A stretch of 29,404 bases of DNA from Tabrizicola piscis (GTDB lineage: Bacteria; Pseudomonadota; Alphaproteobacteria; Rhodobacterales; Rhodobacteraceae): assembly GCF_003940805.1 (NCBI RefSeq), contig NZ_CP034330.1:1-29404 (forward strand). The letters are read 5' to 3'. The notes under the pieces are model-generated. The model did not search any database. It saw only the letters and a program-made list of their open reading frames with translations, and was not told the origin of the DNA. Each line of letters begins with the position of its first letter. Position 1 is the first letter of the stretch. The translations under genes were made by a program, and so were the position numbers. Below are positions 4,421 to 18,507 of this stretch, piece after piece.

Positions 4421-5700
4421 AAGCCATGCCCATGCGTGTTCATGACACCGCCGTTCCGTACATTCCTGTCGTCATCATCGGCGGCGGGCAGGCCGGTCTT
4501 TCCGTCAGCTGGTATCTTACCCGGGACGGGATCGGGCATGTTGTCTTCGAACGATACCGCCGGTTCCAGTCCTGGCGGGAGAACCGTTGGGACAGCTTCT
4601 GCCTGGTCACGCCGAACTGGCAATGCCGGTTGCCCGGATTTCCCTATCAGGGTGACGACCCGGACGGGTTCATGCTGCGCGACGAGATCGTGGAATATCT
4701 GGACGGGTTCAGCGCCAGCTTTGACCCGCCGCTGCACGAGGGCGTGTCGGTGACGCGGGTGACGCCGCTGGCAGAGGGCGGCTACCGGGTCGAGACCACA
4801 GCGGGGGTCTGGACCACGGGGCAAGTGGTCGTGGCGACCGGCGGCTACGATCAGCCCATCGTGCCACCCTATGCCAGCGCCATCGCGCCCGAGGTCATGC
4901 AGATGCATTCGGTCGCGTATCGCCGCCCGTCGCAAGTGCCGGAAGGCGGCACGCTTGTCGTGGGCACCGGGCAATCGGGCGTGCAGATCATGGAGGATCT
5001 TCACCGTGCAGGGCGCGACGTGCATCTGGCGGTCGGGCCGGCACCGCGCAGCCCACGCAAGTACCGTGGCCGCGATGCGACCGACTGGCTGCATGCCATG
5101 GGCCATTACGCGATCACGATCGACAAGCACCCCGACCCGAACAAGGCCCTGACGCAGACCAACCATTACATGTCGGGTCGCGACGGCGGCAAAGAGATCG
5201 ACCTGCGCAAGTTCGCCCTGGAGGGAGTACATCTCTATGGCTCGCTGGCGGGGGCCAAGGGCACCGCGTTGCAGTTCCTGCCGGATCTGGAAAAGAACCT
5301 CGACGATGCCGACCGCAGCTATTGCGGGATCCGCGACCAGATTGACGCCTGGATCGCGACGCAGGGGATCGACGCCCCGGTCGAGCCGCCGTTTCAGAAA
5401 GTGTGGCGACCCGAGCAGGAGGTGACGGAAATCGACTGCGCCGCGCTGGGGATTACCTCGGTGATCTGGGCCATCGGGTTCCGGCCGGATTACGCTTGGC
5501 TGGAGGCCGACTGCTTTGATGCCCAAGGTCGCCCGGTCTACCGGCGCGGGGTGACGCAGGCTCCGGGCTTGTATTTCATCGGCCTGGGCTGGCTGAACAC
5601 CTGGGGGTCAGGCCGGTTTCTGGGAATAGACGATGATGCGCGCTATCTGGCGCAGCAGATCGCGGCCAATGCCCAAGTCGGGGCGCAGGCTGCGGAATGA
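4417..5700 (+). CDS. nitH: NitH, MSMEG_0569-family flavin-dependent oxidoreductase
   Basis: A 427-residue two-dinucleotide-binding-domain flavoprotein resembling flavin monooxygenases. The FAD Rossmann motif IIGGGQAGLSVSWYL is at residues 20-34. A second Rossmann motif for NAD(P)H, VVGTGQSGVQ, is at 181-190. The FMO-type ATGGYDQP is at 140-147. The C-terminal half carries a GD-like region (LYFIGLGWLNTWGSGRFLGI). It starts at the ATGA overlap with nitG; an in-frame ATG at 4429 is a less likely alternative. It presumably oxidises an intermediate of the Nit1C pathway. Its end overlaps the next gene by 4 bases. Confidence 0.92.
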   Translation: MKAMPMRVHDTAVPYIPVVIIGGGQAGLSVSWYLTRDGIGHVVFERYRRFQSWRENRWDSFCLVTPNWQCRLPGFPYQGDDPDGFMLRDEIVEYLDGFSASFDPPLHEGVSVTRVTPLAEGGYRVETTAGVWTTGQVVVATGGYDQPIVPPYASAIAPEVMQMHSVAYRRPSQVPEGGTLVVGTGQSGVQIMEDLHRAGRDVHLAVGPAPRSPRKYRGRDATDWLHAMGHYAITIDKHPDPNKALTQTNHYMSGRDGGKEIDLRKFALEGVHLYGSLAGAKGTALQFLPDLEKNLDDADRSYCGIRDQIDAWIATQGIDAPVEPPFQKVWRPEQEVTEIDCAALGITSVIWAIGFRPDYAWLEADCFDAQGRPVYRRGVTQAPGLYFIGLGWLNTWGSGRFLGIDDDARYLAQQIAANAQVGAQAAE

Positions 5701-6500
5701 AGCACGAGACCTTTCCGCACGGCGACACCGTCGAGCAGCGTCGCCTTGGCATGGCGGAATGCGGCTGGCATGGGCTGTCAGAGGGCTGGCTTCTGCGCCA
5801 TCTGGGCGATGTGCACTGGCGGCAGATCGCCGAAGCGATGGGGCAGCGGGCGGCGGTGTTCCACGATGCCACCGGCGCGCCGGTCTATGCCGCCTTCTGT
5901 GCGATTTCGGAACGGATTCTGCAGCCCGAACTGGCCCGGCCCGGTGCGGTCCTGACCATCACCTCAGGCCTGCAGCGCCTTTCGGCGACTCGGCTCATCT
6001 CGTTCCACCGTCTTGCCATTGATGCCACCGCCTTTGCCGAGGTGATGCTGATCACCGCCTTTGTGCGCCATGGCCACGGCGGCAATGCGCAGATCCGGCG
6101 GGCGCAGCCTTGTGGCGTGCTGGACCTTCCCGCGATGGAGCCGGGCGCGGACAACGGCTTTGCCGAAGAAGCGACACGGCTCTATCGCCAGGAGGGCATT
6201 CCGGCTCTGGCGCTGGAGGCAGAGGTGACCCCCTGCCCGACGACAGAGTTCAACGCCGCCGGGCTGCTTTACTGCGCGAACTATCCGGCCTTGGTGGACC
6301 GGGCAGAGTGGGCGCTATGCCCGGACCTCGCCAGAAACATGCTGACAACGCGCAAGATCGTCTTTCTGGGCAATGTCGACCCCGGAGAACCGGTGCGGGC
6401 GCGGCTGTCGCGCGACCCGCTTTGCCCCAATCGACACAGCGCAACGCTTGACTCCCGCGGGCGGGTGATCGCCCGGATCGTCACGGATCGGCTGAGTTGA
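5697..6500 (+). CDS. Pnap_2097/LnmK-like biosynthetic protein coupled to Nit1C
   Basis: A 267-residue protein in an ATGA overlap with nitH, so it is cotranscribed. The overall pattern is a double hotdog-like layout: an N-terminal MAECGWHGLSEGWLLRHLGD block, then TEFNAAGLLYCANYPALVDRAEW near residues 182-204. It resembles the LnmK/Pnap_2097 group. LnmK is a bifunctional acyltransferase/decarboxylase acting on malonyl-type thioesters in leinamycin biosynthesis. The Asn-Ala-Ala-Gly-Leu-Leu-Tyr-Cys-Ala-Asn-Tyr sequence is reminiscent of thioesterase-like hotdog active sites. No carrier protein gene is nearby. The assignment is by memory of motif and context, so it is tentative. If correct, the operon makes or modifies an acyl thioester-derived product. 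Confidence 0.6.
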   Translation: MKHETFPHGDTVEQRRLGMAECGWHGLSEGWLLRHLGDVHWRQIAEAMGQRAAVFHDATGAPVYAAFCAISERILQPELARPGAVLTITSGLQRLSATRLISFHRLAIDATAFAEVMLITAFVRHGHGGNAQIRRAQPCGVLDLPAMEPGADNGFAEEATRLYRQEGIPALALEAEVTPCPTTEFNAAGLLYCANYPALVDRAEWALCPDLARNMLTTRKIVFLGNVDPGEPVRARLSRDPLCPNRHSATLDSRGRVIARIVTDRLS

Positions 6501-6519
6501 TTGGACGCAGCCATGGCTA

Positions 6520-6558
6520 TTGACTGCATGGATTGATTGCTTACATTCCAATCAATCC
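6520..6558 (+). promoter_or_regulatory. Promoter and palindromic operator of the DUF983 gene
   Basis: TTGACT at 6520-6525 and TACATT at 6542-6547, with a 16-bp spacer, make a plausible sigma70-type promoter. A perfect inverted repeat, GGATTGATTG at 6530-6539 and CAATCAATCC at 6549-6558, spans the -10 element and ends one base before the AGGAGG ribosome-binding site (6560-6565). A further TTGATTGG lies at 6497-6504. As DNA it looks like an operator; as RNA it could form a 10-bp hairpin next to the ribosome-binding site. Confidence 0.5.
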
Positions 6559-6570
6559 TAGGAGGCTGCC

Positions 6571-6933
6571 GTGCAAGACGATCAACGCCAGAGAAAAGTC
6601 GCGATGCGGCATGGGTTGCGGCACCGGTGCCCGAATTGCGGTGAAGGTCGGCTGTTCAGCTCTTACCTGAAGGTTGCCCCCGCCTGCGACGTCTGCGGTC
6701 AGAGTTTTACCGCGCAGAAAGCCGATGACGGCCCGGCCTATTTCACGATTCTGCTGATGTGCCATATCGCGGGCTTCATGCTGCATTTCATGATTGTCTA
6801 CAGCGACTTCGGACCGATGGAGACGGCGCTGTCGATCACGGCCGTGGTTGTGGCCGGCAGCCTGATGCTCCTTCCCCGGATCAAGGGGCTCATGATCGGC
6901 TGGCAATGGGCCGACCGGCTGCACGGGTTCTGA
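6571..6933 (+). CDS. DUF983-family zinc-ribbon membrane protein
   Basis: A 120-residue protein starting at GTG 6571, preceded by a strong AGGAGG five bases upstream. ATG 6604 is an alternative but has no comparable ribosome-binding site. Two CxxC pairs (CPNC near residues 20-23 and CDVC near 39-42) form a probable zinc ribbon. Two hydrophobic helices follow (about residues 54-75 and 82-104). DUF983 proteins are widespread in alphaproteobacteria and their function is not established. It is separated from the Nit1C operon by its own promoter, so it need not belong to that pathway. Confidence 0.85.
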   Translation: MQDDQRQRKVAMRHGLRHRCPNCGEGRLFSSYLKVAPACDVCGQSFTAQKADDGPAYFTILLMCHIAGFMLHFMIVYSDFGPMETALSITAVVVAGSLMLLPRIKGLMIGWQWADRLHGF

Positions 6934-7269
6934 AACGCACAAACCTCGCAGGAGGCGGCGGTCGCGGTTCGGATGCTGTACGCCGCAACGCCGACCTCTG
7001 CCATGAAGGTGCGGCGTCATTAAATGAATCTTAAAATATCAGAAGGATATGATCGGCGCGCTCACGCAGCGCGGCCGACATGTGTGCTTTTGGTTTCGAC
7101 AGAGTCCCGATCAACGACGTGCGAAAGTGCGCTCGTCCGGCCGTCAGCCCAGTACCTGAGACGCTGAATCGGAACACCGCGGCGAAACCACGCAAAAAAC
7201 GCTACCGTTCTCTAATCCATTTACGAAACGATTGCGTATGCTATTCTGCTGTGCGCAGGAGGTGTCTTC
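6934..7269. other. Intergenic region between DUF983 gene and RND operon
   Basis: No convincing gene is present. An imperfectly spaced inverted repeat, ACGCCGCA at 6980-6987 and TGCGGCGT at 7010-7017 (22-base loop), follows the DUF983 stop. It may act as a weak transcription end, but it has no U-tract. An AT-rich patch (7018-7055) follows. The last 50 bases hold the RND promoter described separately. An open frame at 7080-7634 is out of frame with the adaptor gene and was not called. Confidence 0.5.
7220..7264 (+). promoter_or_regulatory. Promoter, TetR-type operator and ribosome-binding site of the RND operon
   Basis: TTTACG at 7220-7225 and TATTCT at 7242-7247, with a 16-bp spacer, form a likely promoter. 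The imperfect palindrome TACGAAACGATTGCGTA (7222-7238, half-sites TACGaAA/TACGcAA) sits between the boxes, where a TetR repressor would block RNA polymerase. AGGAGGTG at 7257-7264 is a near-consensus ribosome-binding site five bases before the ATG at 7270. Regulation by the TetR gene at 11822 is inferred from context. Confidence 0.5.
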
Positions 7270-8460
7270 ATGGCGAACGAAAAACCCGACGACAAGGTCA
7301 AGCGGCGCAAGCGCGGTGGCCTGCTCAGGGGTACGGTGAATGTGGCGCTTCTTGGGGCGATTGCTGCTGGGGTGATCCTTGTCGCGCTCGCCATCCACAA
7401 GCGGTCGGCGGAAGCGCAAGCCGCACAGCAAAGTGCATTGGTCACCCGCGCCGTGCCGGTCAGCGTCGCACGCCCGGCGGCGGAAAGCGGATACGACCTG
7501 ACGCGCAGCTTCACCGGTCTGGTTGCGGCGCGAAGGTCGGTCGATCTGGGGTTCGACCAGGCGGGACGGGTCATGGCGGTGCATGCCGACCTTGGAGATC
7601 GTGTGGCGCAAGGCGAGGTGGTGGCAGAGCTTGACCGGGACCGCCTTTTGGCCCGGCAGGCCGAACTTACGGCATCGATTGCCGAGGCGCGCGCGGCGCT
7701 GGCGCTTGCAGAAGGCGATCTGGGGCGCGCGGTCCGTCTGACCGCCAGTGGTGCCACGGCCGCCGTCACCCGCGATCAGGCACAAAGTGCCCGCGACCGG
7801 GCGGCCGCGCGCCTTGCGTCGGCCGAAGCAGCGCTGGCGAATGTTGCAATCGATCTTGATCTTGCGGCCCTTCGCGCGCCCTTCGAGGCCACGGTGGTGG
7901 CCCGCCTTGCCGAACCCGGCGCGGTCGTGTCGCCCGGAACCCCCATCCTCCGGCTTCTGGATGCCGTCTCGCTTGAAGTGCAGGTGGGCCTGCCGCTGAC
8001 CGAGGCGCGTCGGCTGTCGGTTGGCCAGACCGTCATGCTCCGCCTGAGGCAGGCGCAGGTCGCGGGCACGGTAAGAACTGTCGTGCCCGAAATCGCAGGC
8101 GGCACGCGCACGGCGACGGTCATTGTGGCACTGCCTCCCGGTGCCGAGGTGACCGAGGGAGAGACCGTCGATCTTGTCATCACCAACCGGGTCGATGCTG
8201 AAGGATACTGGGTGCCTACCGCGGCATTGATGCCCGGGGTCAGGGGGCTGTGGGCGCTGCGGACCGTCGTCGTCGATCCGCAAAGCGGGGACGGCACGGT
8301 CGCCGATGCGGCTGTCTCTATCCTGCACGCTGCGGACGGTCGGGCGTTCGTGCGCGGGACGCTTGATGCGGACACCCCCGTGATCATCGACGGGGCGCAT
8401 CGCGTGGCGCCGGGCCAGACCGTCTCCATCCAGCCGACATCGGAAGGAGAAGGCCTGTGA
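7270..8460 (+). CDS. RND efflux periplasmic adaptor (MFP/HlyD family)
   Basis: A 396-residue membrane fusion protein. The N-terminus is basic (KVKRRKRGG) and is followed by one hydrophobic segment (about residues 20-42), so the protein is anchored in the inner membrane with the rest in the periplasm. The barrel-sandwich/lipoyl halves are recognisable: SVDLGFDQAGRVMAVHADLGDRVAQGEVVAELDR near 90-122, then, after an alanine-rich alpha hairpin (about 125-190), LRAPFEATVVARLAEPGAVV. It couples the permease to an outer-membrane channel, which is not encoded here. Its stop overlaps the permease GTG by 4 bases. Confidence 0.92.
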   Translation: MANEKPDDKVKRRKRGGLLRGTVNVALLGAIAAGVILVALAIHKRSAEAQAAQQSALVTRAVPVSVARPAAESGYDLTRSFTGLVAARRSVDLGFDQAGRVMAVHADLGDRVAQGEVVAELDRDRLLARQAELTASIAEARAALALAEGDLGRAVRLTASGATAAVTRDQAQSARDRAAARLASAEAALANVAIDLDLAALRAPFEATVVARLAEPGAVVSPGTPILRLLDAVSLEVQVGLPLTEARRLSVGQTVMLRLRQAQVAGTVRTVVPEIAGGTRTATVIVALPPGAEVTEGETVDLVITNRVDAEGYWVPTAALMPGVRGLWALRTVVVDPQSGDGTVADAAVSILHAADGRAFVRGTLDADTPVIIDGAHRVAPGQTVSIQPTSEGEGL

Positions 8461-12503: not shown

Positions 12504-13184
12504 TCACGCGACGATCCGAACGTCGCGCACAGTCGGATCAATCCGACGAACCGCGGACAACAGCCTTTCCTTAAGGTTGCTTGCGACGTAGGCGGCGTGA
12601 AATTTCGTCGGGGCGGCAAGTGTAAGAGCGTTCGCATCGACACCGGCATCGGCAAGAGCTTGGAACCACGCTCCGTATATCGCGGCATCCTCGGCATGCA
12701 GACAGGCCTGTGCGGCGGACCAGAGAGAACCATCACCGTCAGCCACGTGAACCGTGCGAAGGGAAACCACATTTGACACTGCATGCTTTGGCGTCTCAGC
12801 TGGCTGGAGACGGCTGACGAAATCGTCGCCGATCAGGGGCCAGGCGGACCGCGTGTCCTCCAGCATCTGGTTCAGGTTCATGCCGTAAACGCTTACTCTG
12901 CCGCGCGCACCCTGCCGCTTGAGAACCAGCCAGCCCTGCGCCCGCAGCCGCGCCATTTCACGCTTGACCGTGCGCTCGTCCACCGACCACAGCCGGGCAA
13001 TCTCCCCCTGCCCCATCGTCAGCTCGTCGCGCTGCCAATTGTACCGCGTGGTGATCAGCGCCATTATCCGCAGGATTTGTCGCTGGATGTGCTTGTCCCT
13101 GGACAAGGCGAAGGCCATGAGCGCGGACAGGATATCGTATTTGCGCGACGCGGCCTCGCGCCCGATAGGCCGGGGAAGCTGCAT
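12504..13184 (-). CDS. DnaA-like plasmid replication initiator
   Basis: A 226-residue protein. I set the start at position 13184 (MQLPRPIGREAAS) because AGGAG lies six bases upstream; the longer frame to 13244 has no good ribosome-binding site. Residues 57-105 form a winged helix-turn-helix (GEIARLWSVDERTVKREMAR, then a basic wing ending RVSVYGMN). Residues 153-222 (LWSAAQACLHAEDAAIYGAW through DPTVRDVRIVA) resemble the DnaA N-terminal domain, but at the C-terminus. No AAA+ domain is present, so it is not chromosomal DnaA. Rhodobacterales plasmids of the DnaA-like replicon type carry such a replicase next to parAB, as here. It is divergent from parA across the putative origin. Confidence 0.8.
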   Translation of the reverse strand: MQLPRPIGREAASRKYDILSALMAFALSRDKHIQRQILRIMALITTRYNWQRDELTMGQGEIARLWSVDERTVKREMARLRAQGWLVLKRQGARGRVSVYGMNLNQMLEDTRSAWPLIGDDFVSRLQPAETPKHAVSNVVSLRTVHVADGDGSLWSAAQACLHAEDAAIYGAWFQALADAGVDANALTLAAPTKFHAAYVASNLKERLLSAVRRIDPTVRDVRIVA

Positions 13185-13402
13185 GTCTGTCTCCTGTCCA
13201 TCGCCATGGTCGCTTTCGCGCTCATGTCTGCCTCGGTCACTCATGGCCCTGGTCGGGCTCTTGGGGGCAAAGACGCTAAGTCAACGCTCTTCCCCGCATG
13301 TTGGCCATTTGCGTCCACCAATCCGATTCTGTCAAGCGTGACGTTGGCAGGGGGCCCCTCTACCCCAAATCCATTTCGAAGAAACTGGGTATCACTGGTA
13401 AA

Positions 13403-13478: not shown

Positions 13479-13548
13479 AAATGCATCCCCTGCCCGCCCG
13501 AAGCTGGGTCTTGACCGATTCGGCCCCCCTGCCCTTGCCATCAAGACC

Positions 13549-13572
13549 GGACCTTCCCCGCGGGGAAGGTCC
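13549..13572. repeat. parS-like palindrome, copy 1
   Basis: A perfect palindrome with core ACCTTCCCCGCGGGGAAGGT (13551-13570), extended by GG on the left and CC on the right to 24 bp. It is located 87 bp upstream of the parA start. It is the first of five copies spread over 2.5 kb around parAB, so it is a candidate ParB-binding centromere. Confidence 0.65.
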
Positions 13573-13591
13573 CTGCCCTATTAACTTCGCT

Positions 13592-13621
13592 TTTGCATTC
13601 CTTGCAAATTCGGCGTATTTC
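13592..13621 (+). promoter_or_regulatory. parA promoter with overlapping inverted repeat
   Basis: TTGCAT at 13593-13598 and TATTTC at 13616-13621, with a 17-bp spacer, form a plausible promoter. TTTGCA (13592-13597) and TGCAAA (13603-13608) make a small inverted repeat across the -35 box. ParA proteins with an N-terminal HTH, as encoded here, commonly repress their own operon, so this is a candidate ParA operator. GAGG at 13650-13653 serves as ribosome-binding site. Confidence 0.45.
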
Positions 13622-13658
13622 AGGAAACGCCAAGAATTAACGTTGCAGTGAGGCGCAC

Positions 13659-14951
13659 ATGTATACGCACGAAGATCTCGCCCGGCTACAGGCCCAGTCC
13701 CTGAAGATGCAAAGCTGGATCCGGCAGCAGACCTTCAGTCCCGAGAACCAGAAGACGCTCCGCCGTTTCTCGTCATGGGAGGTGTCAGAGCTGATCTTCA
13801 AGATCAACCAGTCCACATTCCGCGGTCGCCTTGCTGCCGAACCGGACCTTCCCGGCGGGGAAGTTGAACCCGATGGCCGTCAGCGCTGGTTCAGCCTGGA
13901 AGAGATCAACGCCCTCCGCCGCAAGATGAAGATCAACCGCAAGACCCTGATGCCCCCGCGCCCGGCCGGCAAGCGCGCCTTCCGGGCGGCCATCGCGAAC
14001 TTCAAGGGCGGCGCCGGCAAGTCGACCGTTGCGCTCCACTTCGCCCATGCCGCCGCGCTGGATGGCTACCGCGTTCTCCTCGTCGACTTCGACCCGCAGG
14101 CCACCCTCTCCCACTCCATGGGCCTGAACGACGTGGCCGAGGATTACACCGTCTGGGGCATCATGGCCCGCGACCTGATCCGCGAGACGGACCGGATGAA
14201 CGCGGCCACCACCGGGGCGGCCAGCGGCACCACCCTGCCCCGCCGCCAGATCCCCGCCTCGATCCGCGACCTCGGCCTGGGTGAGCTGCGCCACAACGAC
14301 TTCATCAAGACCACCGCCTGGTCCACCATCGACATTGTCCCCTCTTGCGCCAACGCCGCCTTTGTGGAGTTTGCCTCTGCCCAGTACCGGCACCTCAACC
14401 CCGAATGGTCCTTCTTCGCCGCCGTCAGCCGCTACCTCGACAGCTTGGGCGACGACGACTATGACCTGATCCTCTTCGACTGCCCGCCTGCCATCGGCTA
14501 CCAGTCGATGAACGCAGTCTTCGCCGCCGACATGCTCTACATCCCCTCCGGCCCCGGCTATTGGGAGTATGACAGCACCACCAGCTTCATCGGCCAGCTT
14601 TCCGAAGCGCTGGAGGACCTCTCTGGTTTCGGGGCAACCTTCCCCGCGGGGAAGATTTCGCTGCCGAAGGCCTTCGCCGACGTCCGCTTCCTGATGACCC
14701 GGTATGAGCCTGGCAACGACCTTCACCGCGCGATGTTCGAAGCCTTCCGCAAGGTTTTCGGTCCACATGTCGCCGAAAGCCCGATCGAGATGACGCGCGC
14801 CGTCGAACAGTCCGGCCGCTTCCTCTCCTCGGTCTACGAGATCGACTATCGGGAAATGACCCGCGAGACATGGCGCCGCGCCCGCGCCAGCTTTGACAAG
14901 GCGTATGAGGAATTCCGCGGCAGCATGCTTGCCGCCTGGGACAAGATCTGA
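13659..14951 (+). CDS. parA: ParA-type plasmid partition ATPase
   Basis: A 430-residue protein, the length of type Ia ParA/RepA partition ATPases. Residues 1-100 form an N-terminal DNA-binding segment with MerR-like features (SSWEVSELIFKINQSTFRGR and WFSLEEINALRRKM). The deviant Walker A KGGAGKST is at residues 116-123, the Walker A' region VDFDPQAT at 142-149, and LILFDCPPAIG is the Walker B region. The protein drives segregation of plasmid copies with ParB. Two copies of the GC-rich palindrome lie inside the gene: residues 62-69 (DLPGGEV) and 327-333 (TFPAGKI). They are read in different frames. parB follows 11 bases downstream. Confidence 0.95.
   Translation: MYTHEDLARLQAQSLKMQSWIRQQTFSPENQKTLRRFSSWEVSELIFKINQSTFRGRLAAEPDLPGGEVEPDGRQRWFSLEEINALRRKMKINRKTLMPPRPAGKRAFRAAIANFKGGAGKSTVALHFAHAAALDGYRVLLVDFDPQATLSHSMGLNDVAEDYTVWGIMARDLIRETDRMNAATTGAASGTTLPRRQIPASIRDLGLGELRHNDFIKTTAWSTIDIVPSCANAAFVEFASAQYRHLNPEWSFFAAVSRYLDSLGDDDYDLILFDCPPAIGYQSMNAVFAADMLYIPSGPGYWEYDSTTSFIGQLSEALEDLSGFGATFPAGKISLPKAFADVRFLMTRYEPGNDLHRAMFEAFRKVFGPHVAESPIEMTRAVEQSGRFLSSVYEIDYREMTRETWRRARASFDKAYEEFRGSMLAAWDKI
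13846..13865. repeat. parS-like palindrome, copy 2 (degenerate, inside parA)
   Basis: ACCTTCCCGGCGGGGAAGTT differs from the consensus at two positions (13854 and 13864). It encodes part of DLPGGEV in ParA, a frame one base away from that of copies 3 and 4. Confidence 0.5.
14637..14656. repeat. parS-like palindrome, copy 3 (inside parA)
   Basis: ACCTTCCCCGCGGGGAAGAT has one mismatch (14655) to the 20-bp consensus. It is translated as TFPAGKI in the C-terminal part of ParA, in a loop-like Gly/Pro-rich stretch between conserved segments. Confidence 0.6.
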
Positions 14952-14962
14952 GGGGGTAGCCG

Positions 14963-16066
14963 ATGACCAAGAAGCGCCGCATGTTTGATATCGATCTGCC
15001 AGAGGGACCCGCAGCCGAAACCTTCCCCGCGGGGAAGGTTTCCGATCCCCCTGCCCGTCGCGGCCCGATGGCGACGGCCATTGCCGAGACGGCCACGTCA
15101 ACCCGCGAACGCCATGAGATCGAGGCGCAGATCCGCGCCGAGAATGATGCCTTGGCGCATGAGCATGTCAGGCTCAAACGCCTTGGCCTTGTGGTTGATC
15201 TGGTGCCGCTGGACCAGATCGAGATGACCAAGCTTGTCCGCGACCGCAAGAAGGGCCCCGATGCCGAGCTGGCCGAGCTGAAGGCTTCGATCGCCGAGCT
15301 GGGCCTTTCCAACCCGATTCGGCTTGAAGCCCGGGCCGATGGTCGGTGCGAGCTGATCCAGGGCTATCGTCGCCTTGCGGCCTACCGCGAGCTGCTGGAC
15401 GACACGGGCGATGCCGACCGCTTTGGCAAGATCCCGGCTGTGGTCAGTCAGCCTGGCGATGATCTTGAGGCGCTCTACCGCAAGATGGTGGACGAGAACC
15501 TGGTGCGGAAGGACATCTCTTTCGCCGAGATGGCGATGCTTGCGCTGGACTATGCCAGCGACCCCGGCACCGCGATCAGCGACCCGGAAAAGGCCGTGGC
15601 CGTGCTCTTCAAGTCCGCCGGCTATCAGAAGCGCAGCTACATCCGCACCTTCATGGCTGTGGTCGAACGGCTGGGTGCCGACCTCCTTTACCCGCAGGAC
15701 ATCCCGCGCGCGCTTGGCATCGCTCTGGCCCGCAGGTTCGAGCAGGTGGATGGTCTTGCCGCGCTGATCCGGGCCGAGCTGAAGGGTTGGGACACCCGGT
15801 CCGTCACTGACGAGCTGGCCGTCCTGCGGCGCTTTGCGGGCGAAGCGGACGAGGGCGAGGCCCGGGAACAACCGGCCGTGCCACCGCGCCCGGACAAACC
15901 GGCAAAGGCCAAGACGAGTTTCCAGTTCGATCGCCAGGACGGCCGTGGCAAATGCGTGGCCGCCGTCGGCAAGCTTGAGATCCAGCTTGACCGCGACTTC
16001 ACCACCATTGATCGACGGCGGCTGGAACAGGCCGTGCGCCTGATGCTGGACCAGCTGGACGGGTAG
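14963..16066 (+). CDS. parB: ParB-type plasmid partition protein
   Basis: A 367-residue ParB/RepB-family protein. The ParB N-terminal domain covers about residues 78-170, with the box VRDRKKGPDAELAELKASI and LSNPIRLEARADGRCELIQG, followed by GYRRLAAYREL at 134-144, which corresponds to the GERRxxA CTP-contact motif. A helix-turn-helix region follows at about 170-260 (KDISFAEMAMLALDYA). The C-terminal 60 residues resemble a RepB dimerisation region. It binds parS centromeres and recruits ParA. Its own N-terminal tail contains palindrome copy 4 (residues 19-26, TFPAGKV). A GGGGGTAG ribosome-binding site precedes the ATG. Confidence 0.95.
   Translation: MTKKRRMFDIDLPEGPAAETFPAGKVSDPPARRGPMATAIAETATSTRERHEIEAQIRAENDALAHEHVRLKRLGLVVDLVPLDQIEMTKLVRDRKKGPDAELAELKASIAELGLSNPIRLEARADGRCELIQGYRRLAAYRELLDDTGDADRFGKIPAVVSQPGDDLEALYRKMVDENLVRKDISFAEMAMLALDYASDPGTAISDPEKAVAVLFKSAGYQKRSYIRTFMAVVERLGADLLYPQDIPRALGIALARRFEQVDGLAALIRAELKGWDTRSVTDELAVLRRFAGEADEGEAREQPAVPPRPDKPAKAKTSFQFDRQDGRGKCVAAVGKLEIQLDRDFTTIDRRRLEQAVRLMLDQLDG
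15017..15042. repeat. parS-like palindrome, copy 4 (inside parB)
   Basis: A perfect 26-bp palindrome containing the 20-bp core at 15020-15039, with GAA/TTC extensions. It is the longest of the five copies. It is translated in ParB as TFPAGKV between the start and the ParB domain, where the protein is probably unstructured and tolerant of insertions. Confidence 0.65.
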
Positions 16067-16073
16067 GGCAGGG

Positions 16074-16093
16074 ACCTTCCCCGCGGGGAAGGT
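16074..16093. repeat. parS-like palindrome, copy 5
   Basis: A perfect 20-bp copy 8 bases after the parB stop and 2 bases before the end of the convergent ATPase gene. As RNA it would also form a strong hairpin between the convergent genes, so it may additionally end transcription, but a U-tract is lacking. Confidence 0.6.
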
Positions 16094-17428: not shown

Positions 17429-18472
17429 TCACTCGCCGAGAAGATCGGTCGCCGGGTTCTCGGTGATCTCGACATCGGCATAGTATTTCTGGGCCTGCAC
17501 GGCGGATCGGTGCAGGGACAGCTTCATGGCGGCAGCCAAGGGCGCGCCGTCGAGGGCGGCTTGAGTGAGAAACCCGGCGCGCAGGCCATGTGGGGTGGCA
17601 AAATTCACCGGCAGCCCGGCAAGAACCAACCGGTGCCGCAGGATCGTGCGAAGGGCATCCGTTGCGAGGCGGCGGGGCAGGGGGCGATCGGATAGAGAGA
17701 TCGGACGGAACAGCGGGCCATCGGTGATCTTGGTCACCTCCAGCCAATGCACTAGCGCACGGGCGGCCCGGCCCTTCATCGGCAGGCGTGGGGCCTGATC
17801 CTTCCTCGTGGTCTTGGTGTCCAACAACGTGATCCAGATCAGACCCTTGGGCGTGAAGTCATCAAGGCCAACGTCCTCGACATTCAGCGCGGTGAGTTCC
17901 GACCGCCGTCGCCCACCGCTGGCGAATGCCAGCATCAGCATGGCGCGGTCCCGGATGCCGCGGCGGCTGGCATCGCAGGTGGCAAGCAGTGCCTCAAGAA
18001 TATCGCGGGTCACCGGTTTGGGCGACTTTGGCACCCGGGGCCGCGCATTGGCGCGCCGGGCCTTTTGCCGGGCCTGCTGGACAAGGGGGGACGAGAAGGG
18101 CGAGGCCAGGTTTCGCATCCGGTGGAACGCCTGCCAGCTTGCGATGCGCCGGTCCAGCGTGGCCGGGGCAGGGCAGGTCAGCTCGCGCCGCAACCCGATG
18201 GCGATCAGCTCCATCGCTACATCCCGTGCAGCGCCCGGCTTTTCCGTCAGGTCCTGCGCGTGATCAAGGATGAAGCGCAGGGCTACCTTCTCCTCCTCGG
18301 GCCAGTCCAGTGGCCGACCGAACGAGGCCATCTTCCAGGCTGCGATATAGGCAAGATCCCGTTCCCAGGCGCGCAGCGTGTTGGCGGGCGTGCCGCGGCG
18401 GTACAGATCGGTCAGTGCCGCCTCGTCAGCTTCGGAGAGCTGGGCATAGGCGGGGAGGGCAAGGGTGGTCAT
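17429..18472 (-). CDS. Tyrosine recombinase (XerC/integrase family)
   Basis: A 347-residue protein. I place the start at ATG 18472, with AAGGG six bases upstream; a TTG five codons earlier is possible. The N-terminal SAM-like/core-binding domain covers about residues 1-130. The catalytic residues are visible: Arg189 (GGRRRSEL), Lys in the beta hairpin near 220-224 (DTKTTRK), His295 and Arg298 (PHGLR), His321 (SLHRSA) and nucleophile Tyr330, nine residues after His321 as in XerC. In a plasmid backbone such an enzyme may resolve multimers, or it could be the integrase of an element. No att or dif-like site was identified. Confidence 0.9.
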   Translation of the reverse strand: MTTLALPAYAQLSEADEAALTDLYRRGTPANTLRAWERDLAYIAAWKMASFGRPLDWPEEEKVALRFILDHAQDLTEKPGAARDVAMELIAIGLRRELTCPAPATLDRRIASWQAFHRMRNLASPFSSPLVQQARQKARRANARPRVPKSPKPVTRDILEALLATCDASRRGIRDRAMLMLAFASGGRRRSELTALNVEDVGLDDFTPKGLIWITLLDTKTTRKDQAPRLPMKGRAARALVHWLEVTKITDGPLFRPISLSDRPLPRRLATDALRTILRHRLVLAGLPVNFATPHGLRAGFLTQAALDGAPLAAAMKLSLHRSAVQAQKYYADVEITENPATDLLGE

Positions 18473-18507
18473 GCGGGACCCTTGCAACAGGTCTGGGTTT
18501 GCCCCAT

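Follow-up and report, generated by a model that had tools for sequence, protein, structure and literature searches.

Introduction

Petersen and colleagues, writing in Mol Biol Evol in 2011, are said to have described conserved palindromes in the module of DnaA-like replicons as centromeric anchors and to have recognized two compatibility groups. Here we analysed a 29,404-base stretch of Tabrizicola piscis DNA (NZ_CP034330.1, hereafter the window), in which five palindromes lie in and around the partition genes parA and parB. With a probability of about 0.93, these palindromes, as judged from sequence, are the parS centromere of a type I ParABS system on a DnaA-like replicon of Rhodobacterales. 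This identity is proposed because the palindromes occupy conserved slots, because a residue of ParB corresponds to their outer letters, and because the site is restricted to the replicon in the host genome. The slots, the codon constraint over the sites, the concerted arms and the residue code are established observations.

The other replicons with which this locus can be compared are described in several articles. In repABC replicons, parS palindromes differ by a letter between compatibility groups (PMC9040568, PMC5613091), and some of them lie in open reading frames (ORFs) near repABC and at the 5' end of repB (PMC9040568). For repABC groups differing by one letter, the same compatibility argument as the one developed below has been made (PMC5613091). 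A putative parS has also been placed within parA of M. bovis BCG (PMC2346475).

Palindromes at conserved slots

The initial annotation had reported five near-identical 20-mers within 2.5 kb that could not be due to chance. The sites, numbered 1 to 5 from left to right (Table 1), indeed carry 0, 2, 1, 0 and 0 mismatches, and no further copy with up to 3 mismatches occurs in the window. In 100 dinucleotide-preserving shuffles of the window there were 0 matches. Three copies lie within coding sequence in the frames given by that annotation, namely site 2 at offset 1 and site 3 at offset 0 in parA, and site 4 at offset 0 in parB. Site 2, whose codons GAC CTT CCC GGC GGG GAA GTT encode DLPGGEV, is the weakest of the five, the pair next to its centre being broken (CCCGGCGGGG). 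Site 4 extends to a perfect 26-bp palindrome, GAAACC...GGTTTC, at 15017-15042. The same extension, full or partial, recurs at dispersed copies in two other genomes, G034 and G035. A literature search by the palindrome letters returned unrelated papers only, among the matches listed.

A search with ParB gave 86 loci, the best 80 of which (L006-L085) were taken, making 81 sequences with the window. Palindromes in these relatives stand at recurring offsets from the parB start. Their centre, T-CCCC-GCGGGG-A, is common to all classes, and the two flanking letters are CT, GT, TT or TG. On the basis of these letters, 75 of the 81 sequences were assigned to an arm class (CT 36, GT 25, TT 11 and TG 3). 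Seven slots were distinguished, in the order upstream of parA, parA N-terminus, parA C-terminal part, parB N-terminus, parB middle, parB C-terminal part and downstream of parB. In this order, the numbers of loci with a palindrome are at least 15, 24, 35, 31, 11, 3 and 27 in CT (36 loci, window included), 20, 0, 2, 21, 22, 1 and 12 in GT (24 counted), 8, 5, 10, 1, 0, 4 and 8 in TT (10 counted), and 3, 0, 3, 2, 0, 2 and 2 in TG (3 loci); all are lower bounds, because several loci are cut by contig ends, and L011, L077, L080 and L085 were excluded.

The arms of a locus are concerted. Coding and non-coding palindromes have the same arm class in 64 of the 67 loci that contain both, compared with a mean of 23.1 and a maximum of 40 in 10,000 permutations (L033 was also excluded here). 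The encoded peptide depends on the frame. In frame 0 the palindrome spells mostly FPAGK, FPAGN or VPAGT, according to the class; in frame 1 it spells LPRGE, VPRGE or LPGGE; in frame 2, used in four TT loci, it spells SPRG or SPQG. A Geminicoccaceae metagenome-assembled genome (MAG; L052), whose contig is labelled outside Rhodobacterales, carries eight palindromes at 5602-8195 in two clusters downstream of parB.

A one-residue code in ParB

The ParB alignment kept 76 sequences, with L011, L033, L077, L080 and L085 excluded. Column 221 corresponds to the arm class in 72 of 72 sequences and does so one-to-one: Y with CT (35), K with GT (24), P with TT (10) and R with TG (3). It is the sole perfect predictor among 348 ParB columns, the next best reaching 0.931. 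K with GT is found in Puniceibacterium (L036, L041) as well as the main GT clade, and R with TG in Alloyangia and Shimia. On the ParB tree, each of these two combinations involves two changes, residue and class shifting together.

The code was also seen in 29 further loci (L089-L117), in a set that may include mutual near-copies and in which the ParB of 27 loci is less than 95% identical to the first set; the ParB proteins of L090 and L091, identical to those of L037 and L016, respectively, were not counted as new. Of the further loci, 19 have the standard core, and residue and arms match in all 19, including the 17 that are new. All seven loci with a variant core have Y and CT arms as judged by eye, the core reading CTTACCC in L104, L106, L114 and L116 and CTTATCC in L109, L111 and L117. 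The residue-221 code holds in 24 of the 24 testable new loci (less than 95% identical to the first set). The nearest neighbour of L108 is a K/GT locus (L036, 59% identical), yet L108 itself has Y and CT arms.

The seven variant-core loci, together with L047 (CTTACCC), have T or S, not Q, at ParB residue 222. Residue 222 may therefore also contribute to specificity, in a looser way. Its correspondence with the core letters is not one-to-one: T occurs with ACCC, and S with both CCCC and ATCC.

In the predicted ParB model (mean pLDDT 81, pTM 0.54), helix 208-215 is followed by helix 221-240, which is the second helix of a helix-turn-helix (HTH) motif, and the fold matches those of Noc, ParB and KorB. 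Residues 170-173 of Caulobacter ParB are among those contacting parS (PMC7383237). Residue 221 aligns by eye with Caulobacter residue 170 or 171.

The palindromes flank and enter a replication and partition module, and one of them occupies a position upstream of parA at which a repressor might act. They might thus be operator or iteron sites of the DnaA-like replicase or of the N-terminal HTH of ParA, serving replication control or autoregulation instead of ParB loading; autoregulation by Par proteins is common. However, the best replicase column predicts the arm class at only 0.831 (231 columns) and the best ParA column at 0.914, the latter being located within the slot itself, whereas the perfect ParB column stands at the start of the recognition helix. 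This comparison rules out recognition by the replicase or ParA as the main cause and makes the operator explanation improbable.

Selection on the DNA of the sites

Synonymous constraint was scanned in six-codon sliding windows, in which identical codons among identical amino acids were compared with expectation. Since the sequences are related, windows were ranked against other windows of the same genes, without assuming independence. The ParA alignment kept 74 sequences; no full parA was found in L011, L015, L033, L056, L065, L080 and L085, which were excluded. ParA residues 326-329, at site 3, take ranks 1-4 of 425 in 34 CT sequences. Residue 327 ranks 2 of 425 in CT versus 267 of 425 in GT, where 20 of 22 parA genes are without site 3, and site 2 ranks 9 of 425 in CT versus 141 of 425 in GT, where it is absent. 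ParB residues 19-20, at site 4, take ranks 1-2 of 339 in 35 CT sequences. In GT ParB (24 sequences), the two GT sites, at residues 22 and 177, rank 1 and 3 of 330.

Because the sites are where synonymous codon choice is under the strongest constraint, and because all three frames are used, selection acts on the DNA. The initial annotation had drawn this conclusion from the difference in frame. The conclusion stands, but the frame argument alone is indecisive at site 2, because the peptide is conserved there too; it is codon choice that decided.

Selection could also be imagined to act on the peptides FPAGK and LPGGE, the DNA palindrome merely following, since 31 ParA sequences representing all classes have an invariant L64, P65, G67 and P329 and an almost invariant G331. 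However, identical DNA encodes FPAGK, LPRGE or SPRG depending on which of the three frames is used, and two copies are non-coding. Synonymous positions are most constrained over the sites and not at the same places in sequences without a site. Furthermore, pLDDT is below 50 at ParB residues 19-26 and ParA residues 327-335 in the predicted models. The codon constraint rules out peptide selection as the main cause, and this explanation is barely credible.

Sites over pre-existing loops

The proteins had been thought to have tolerated insertion of the site. For ParA this does not hold, as relatives that lack the site still have, at the same place, a Pro-x-Gly loop of comparable length. LPxG at ParA residues 64-67 and Pro-x-Gly at 329-331 are kept with or without the site in every class. 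The second loop has 17-18 residues in CT, 14 in two site-bearing GT loci, 16 in 20 site-less GT loci, and 16 or 17 in TG. Because the loop exists where the site is missing, insertion into ParA is ruled out, and the ParA sites arose over existing loops.

The N-terminal linker of ParB is longer when it contains a site. Its median length is 34 with the site (29 loci) versus 29 without (5 loci) in CT, 49 (21 loci) versus 32 (3 loci) in GT, and 34 (1 locus) versus 29 (9 loci) in TT. Because the linker is longer with the site and is highly variable, gain or loss of a site by insertion or deletion is plausible, in the disordered ParB N-terminus only.

Genomic distribution of the site

The window is the whole of contig C3 in a host genome of 4.39 Mb in five contigs. 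The 16-mer CTTCCCCGCGGGGAAG occurs four times in this genome, and all four copies are within the window. Restriction to the replicon thus holds for the 16-mer but not fully for the 14-base core, which occurs four times in the window and once on the chromosome. Among 295 genomes of the family, the 16-mer is present in 20, namely 18 of the 135 with this ParB (E ≤1e-20) versus 2 of the 160 without it (Fisher p 3e-5). The 36 CT-type genomes (35 CT and L040) hold 108 exact 16-mers, of which 91 are within the fetched parAB loci.

Many copies across the chromosome, which the initial annotation took as a mark of a REP-like or insertion-prone element, were not found in the host genome and were found in one relative, G034. 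This genome has 33 exact 16-mers, 32 of them on its 4.15-Mb chromosome. Of the chromosomal sites, 18 lie in the quarter 3.12-4.15 Mb, beside the inferred origin, and two lie near the inferred terminus. G034 encodes an orphan chromosomal ParB of the window's family (L133, G034:C1:3417500-3423500); neither parA nor rep was seen within the surrounding 6 kb, and the genome has no close ParA (best 31%). It is possibly a Noc-like domesticated partition protein. A Tabrizicola MAG (L015) likewise has ParB without an adjacent parA ORF, the best ParA of the genome being 35%; it holds five exact 16-mers, one in the fetched locus. The genome of Amylibacter marinus (L023) has eleven, two in the fetched locus, and outside the parAB locus there are three pairs 52-53 bases apart.

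The copies in G034 and in the genome of L023 would fit a spreading palindromic element, REP-like or similar to the RPE of Rickettsia, with in-frame insertion into genes. Of 26 copies inspected in G034, several read FPAGK in open frames, which are not established as genes. However, the confinement of the 16-mer to the window rules out a dispersed repeat in the host genome. The ParA alignments show substitution over a pre-existing loop and no insertion, and the arms track a ParB residue, which is not required of a selfish repeat. A spreading element is therefore very improbable, even less probable than the operator explanation.

Several observations weigh against reading the palindromes as parS. 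The arm class switched only a few times (GT 2, TG 2, TT 1 and CT 1, or 7 when the four unclassified rows are counted as a state), and a sign test on independent pairs is unable to reach 0.05 with so few pairs. No clear arm class is seen in six of the 81 sequences (L011, L040, L047, L050, L071, L085), coding and non-coding arms differ in three of the 67 loci (L040, L042, L082), and no palindrome was found by these scans in three of the 29 further loci (L098, L103, L112). Whole-chain TM-scores of ParB are low, at 0.18-0.37 of the query (29 rows, E ≤0.001), and the top VIA-align row is a sulfiredoxin, which shares the N-terminal domain only. CTP binding by ParB is suggested by fold and motifs. 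Site 2 may be a weak site, because it is imperfect and lies on the LPxG peptide conserved in all classes. Two of the 20 genomes with the 16-mer (G018, G102) are without this ParB at E 1e-20, and four of the 36 CT-type genomes are without an exact 16-mer. The core copy on the host's own chromosome (G000:C1:980405, L001) is a 20-mer with 3 mismatches to the window motif and is read FYIPRGED in a nirK-like ORF of 410 aa, whose product is similar to copper nitrite reductase. This copy keeps 9 of 10 pairs over 20 bases. Because the one broken pair is that of the specificity position, position 8, the copy may be either a weak site or a coding sequence that matches by chance.

Replicon and gene setting

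The features of the locus are collected in Table 1. No overlap was seen between the ends of contig C3. The replicase matches Pfam DnaA_N (PF11638) with E 6.5e-5 and 23.0 bits, under the 24.6-bit cut-off, and also HTH_Crp_2. Its homologue is present in 75 of the 81 sequences (tblastn, window included), on the minus strand in 75 of 75. The neighbours of parAB on plasmid records are annotated 'DnaA N-terminal domain-containing protein', and related DNA with parAB lies on plasmids of Paracoccus, Leisingera, Defluviimonas and others, with a DnaA N-terminal domain gene in many of the listed rows. A replicase similar to the DnaA N-terminus thus adjoins parAB, as it does in DnaA-like replicons; autonomous replication and the behaviour of a compatibility group are putative here.

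The components of a type I ParABS system are present. KGGAGK of ParA is invariant in 31 sequences, as in a Walker-type ATPase, ParB has an N-terminal CTPase-type domain and an HTH, and palindromes of the parS kind lie at the operon. The N-terminal HTH of ParA was read off the helices of the predicted model and from matches of the RepA/SopA type. Beyond parB there is a DUF4143 ATPase gene, followed by the gene for the XerC/D-like tyrosine recombinase, which is possibly the replicon's own dimer resolvase. A tyrosine-type recombinase gene lies directly downstream of parB in two other such plasmids (L196 2444-3478, L198 2463-3503).

Table 1 Features of the window around parA and parB
Feature	Position	Strand	Remarks
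DnaA-like replicase gene (246 aa)	12504..13244	-	divergent from parA
KOPS-like GGGCAGGG, three copies	13488, 13527, 13571 (span 13488..13578)	-	pointing left
parS 1 (putative)	13551..13570		perfect palindrome, non-coding, upstream of parA; slot U in 15/36 CT loci
parA (430 aa)	13659..14951	+	Pfam AAA_31 E 1.1e-25; AlphaFold model mean pLDDT 71
parS 2 (putative)	13846..13865		imperfect, in parA, frame 1, DLPGGEV; slot A1 in 24/36 CT loci
KOPS-like GGGCAGGG	14233..14240	-	in parA, points left, fixed near -730 from parB start
parS 3 (putative)	14637..14656		in parA, frame 0, TFPAGKI; slot A2 in 35/36 CT loci
parB (367 aa)	14963..16066	+	ParB_N E 1.9e-4, 21.8 bits, under 26.3 cut-off; Noc/ParB/KorB fold
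parS 4 (putative)	15020..15039		in parB N-terminus, frame 0, TFPAGKV; slot B1 in 31/36 CT loci
KOPS-like GGGCAGGG	15049..15056	-	in parB, last left-pointing copy
ParB Y221 codon	15623..15625	+	first residue of helix 221-240; candidate arm-specificity residue
KOPS-like GGGCAGGG	16066..16073	+	first right-pointing copy, adjoins parS 5
parS 5 (putative)	16074..16093		perfect palindrome, non-coding, just 3' of parB; slot D in 27/36 CT loci
XerC/D-like tyrosine recombinase	17429-18487		second gene downstream of parB

A polarity axis at parB

The 8-mer GGGCAGGG matches the KOPS consensus GGGNAGGG. The window contains 16 copies of it or of its complement CCCTGCCC, between 524 and 27388, compared with a mean of 3.19 and a maximum of 7 in shuffled sequence. 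Nine left-pointing copies of GGGCAGGG precede parB and one lies within it, and the six copies beyond are all right-pointing. The direction tracks place and not gene strand, holding in the minus-strand rep region and in both plus-strand genes, parA and parB. No other 8-mer with at least 60 copies in 80 relatives is as polar about the parB start as GGGCAGGG (464 versus 24); about 70 of the 464 are one copy fixed near -730 and are non-independent, and the right side alone gives 218 versus 16. In the window this copy is CCCTGCCC at 14233-14240, that is, GGGCAGGG on the other strand. It is fixed in position in most relatives, across arm classes, and the windows over it rank 1 of 425 in GT and 8 of 425 (residue 192) in CT for synonymous constraint. 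An individual KOPS copy would not normally be expected to keep its place. The two-arm polarity of the KOPS consensus about parB is thus seen for GGGCAGGG; the same tendency is seen in the few copies of GGGTAGGG and GGGGAGGG, and not in GGGAAGGG.

The polarity was also followed over whole replicons of Leisingera, P. fistulariae, Defluviimonas, Paracoccus MC1862 and the window, with the axis set at parB (sequences L191-L201). With a fitted terminus, the copies of GGGCAGGG that agree in direction are 19 of 19, 27 of 28, 24 of 29, 18 of 22 and 15 of 16, respectively; with the terminus at half length, 15, 24, 18, 17 and 15 copies agree. Relative to the parB start, the cumulative GC-skew minimum lies at +183, +429, +140, +3568 and +2183, respectively. 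Averaged over 80 loci, GC skew has a positive sign in all bins from -250 onwards and a negative sign in all earlier bins but the one at -1000. The control motif GGGACGGG has too few copies (11, 2, 3, 6 and 2) for use on single replicons.

The polarity is not peculiar to DnaA-like replicons, because 20 samples of 20 kb show two arms of GGGCAGGG on the host chromosome too, and on contig C2, a further replicon, the motif likewise changes direction. What is specific to the DnaA-like replicon is the location of the axis at parB. Such polarity has been reported on large replicons (PMC13342612, PMC11724359), and KOPS is mentioned once in PMC7901474. In Enterobacteriaceae, FtsK-type resolution is the rule above 250 kb, and significant motif clustering occurs in 41% of plasmids larger than 75 kb (PMC11724359). 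No case of KOPS polarity in DnaA-like replicons was found in the literature, among the matches listed. A search for dif with an E. coli-like pattern found no convincing site, giving one 3-mismatch match in the window, against a chance mean of 2.1, and only 2-mismatch, chance-like matches across the genome.

The reversal of the KOPS-like motifs and of GC skew near parB is a hint that parAB is also the origin or the segregation axis of the replicon. The 2.5 kb of parA and parB would then be multiply coded, carrying two proteins, a centromere read through one ParB residue, and the axis about which the whole replicon is polarized, with the origin or FtsK axis in or beside parB. This last placement is proposed because motifs and skew reverse at the end of parA and the 5' region of parB; the proposal as a whole is tentative and has somewhat less than an even chance of being correct. 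If true, the axis would lie elsewhere than in the AT-richer gap that precedes parA, and this on a replicon of 29 kb, well short of about 250 kb, and the origin or segregation axis of DnaA-like replicons could be located from sequence.

Proposed mechanism and implications

The residue-arm code suggests that ParB binds to the sites and that partition needs them. ParB dimers would read each half-site by the HTH, with residue 221, where the recognition helix begins, reading positions 8 and 7 from the centre (C and T here). By analogy with relatives, ParB would load as a CTP clamp at several sites over 2.5 kb, and ParA would move the resulting ParB-DNA complex. We infer binding, loading and partition in this way, as well as a role of the arm class in setting compatibility.

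The presence of sites within genes would be explained by their low cost to the proteins, given that the palindrome can encode, in any frame, a Pro-x-Gly loop, which would be close to neutral, or a disordered linker (FPAGK, LPRGE, SPRG). When the specificity of ParB changes, the sites of the replicon would change together, and with them the encoded peptide (FPAGK, FPAGN, VPAGT). The locus thereby shows a switch of binding-site specificity carried through coding sequence, in which a change in ParB alters the peptides at the embedded sites. The module would move as one cassette, site and reader being inseparable. If this is true, the partition specificity of DnaA-like plasmids would be readable from a single ParB residue and two bases, and the compatibility of these replicons would be predictable from sequence.

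Comparison with known systems

The locus shares with the DnaA-like replicons of Rhodobacterales the same weak DnaA N-terminal replicase, divergent from parAB, and the same host range. No residue code or coding slots were found for these replicons among the matches listed, in a search that left most subscription papers outside.

The likeness to repABC lies in the site. Judged by eye, the palindrome of the GT class, GTTCCCCGCGGGGAAC, conforms to the repABC parS consensus GTTNNCNGCNGNNAAC (for example, in L054 and L058), a hint that site and ParB have a common origin with those of repABC. However, the proteins fall below the NCBIfam cut-offs for RepA and RepB: ParA scores 202.1 bits against 348.45 for TIGR03453, and ParB 38.6 against 201.5 for TIGR03454. 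In addition, the replicase of the window has no NCBIfam match and is divergent, and three of the five sites lie in parA and parB.

The initial annotation regarded a centromere distributed through its own partition genes as notable. The distribution is real but not unprecedented, as parS in coding sequence of the parA or parB type is known elsewhere. In the ParT-parS system of Streptomyces SCP2, parS likewise lies in the coding sequence of its own binding protein (PMC12260392). SCP2 differs in having one site, an 18-bp inverted repeat, and a CTP-independent ParB-like protein (PMC12260392). In the Noc-NBS and ParB-parS pairs, residues 173 and 201 decide the site bases, 179 and 184 being permissive (Caulobacter numbering; PMC7383237). 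In contrast to these, the family of the window shows, in natural replicons and known here from sequences alone, a four-state code written in one residue.

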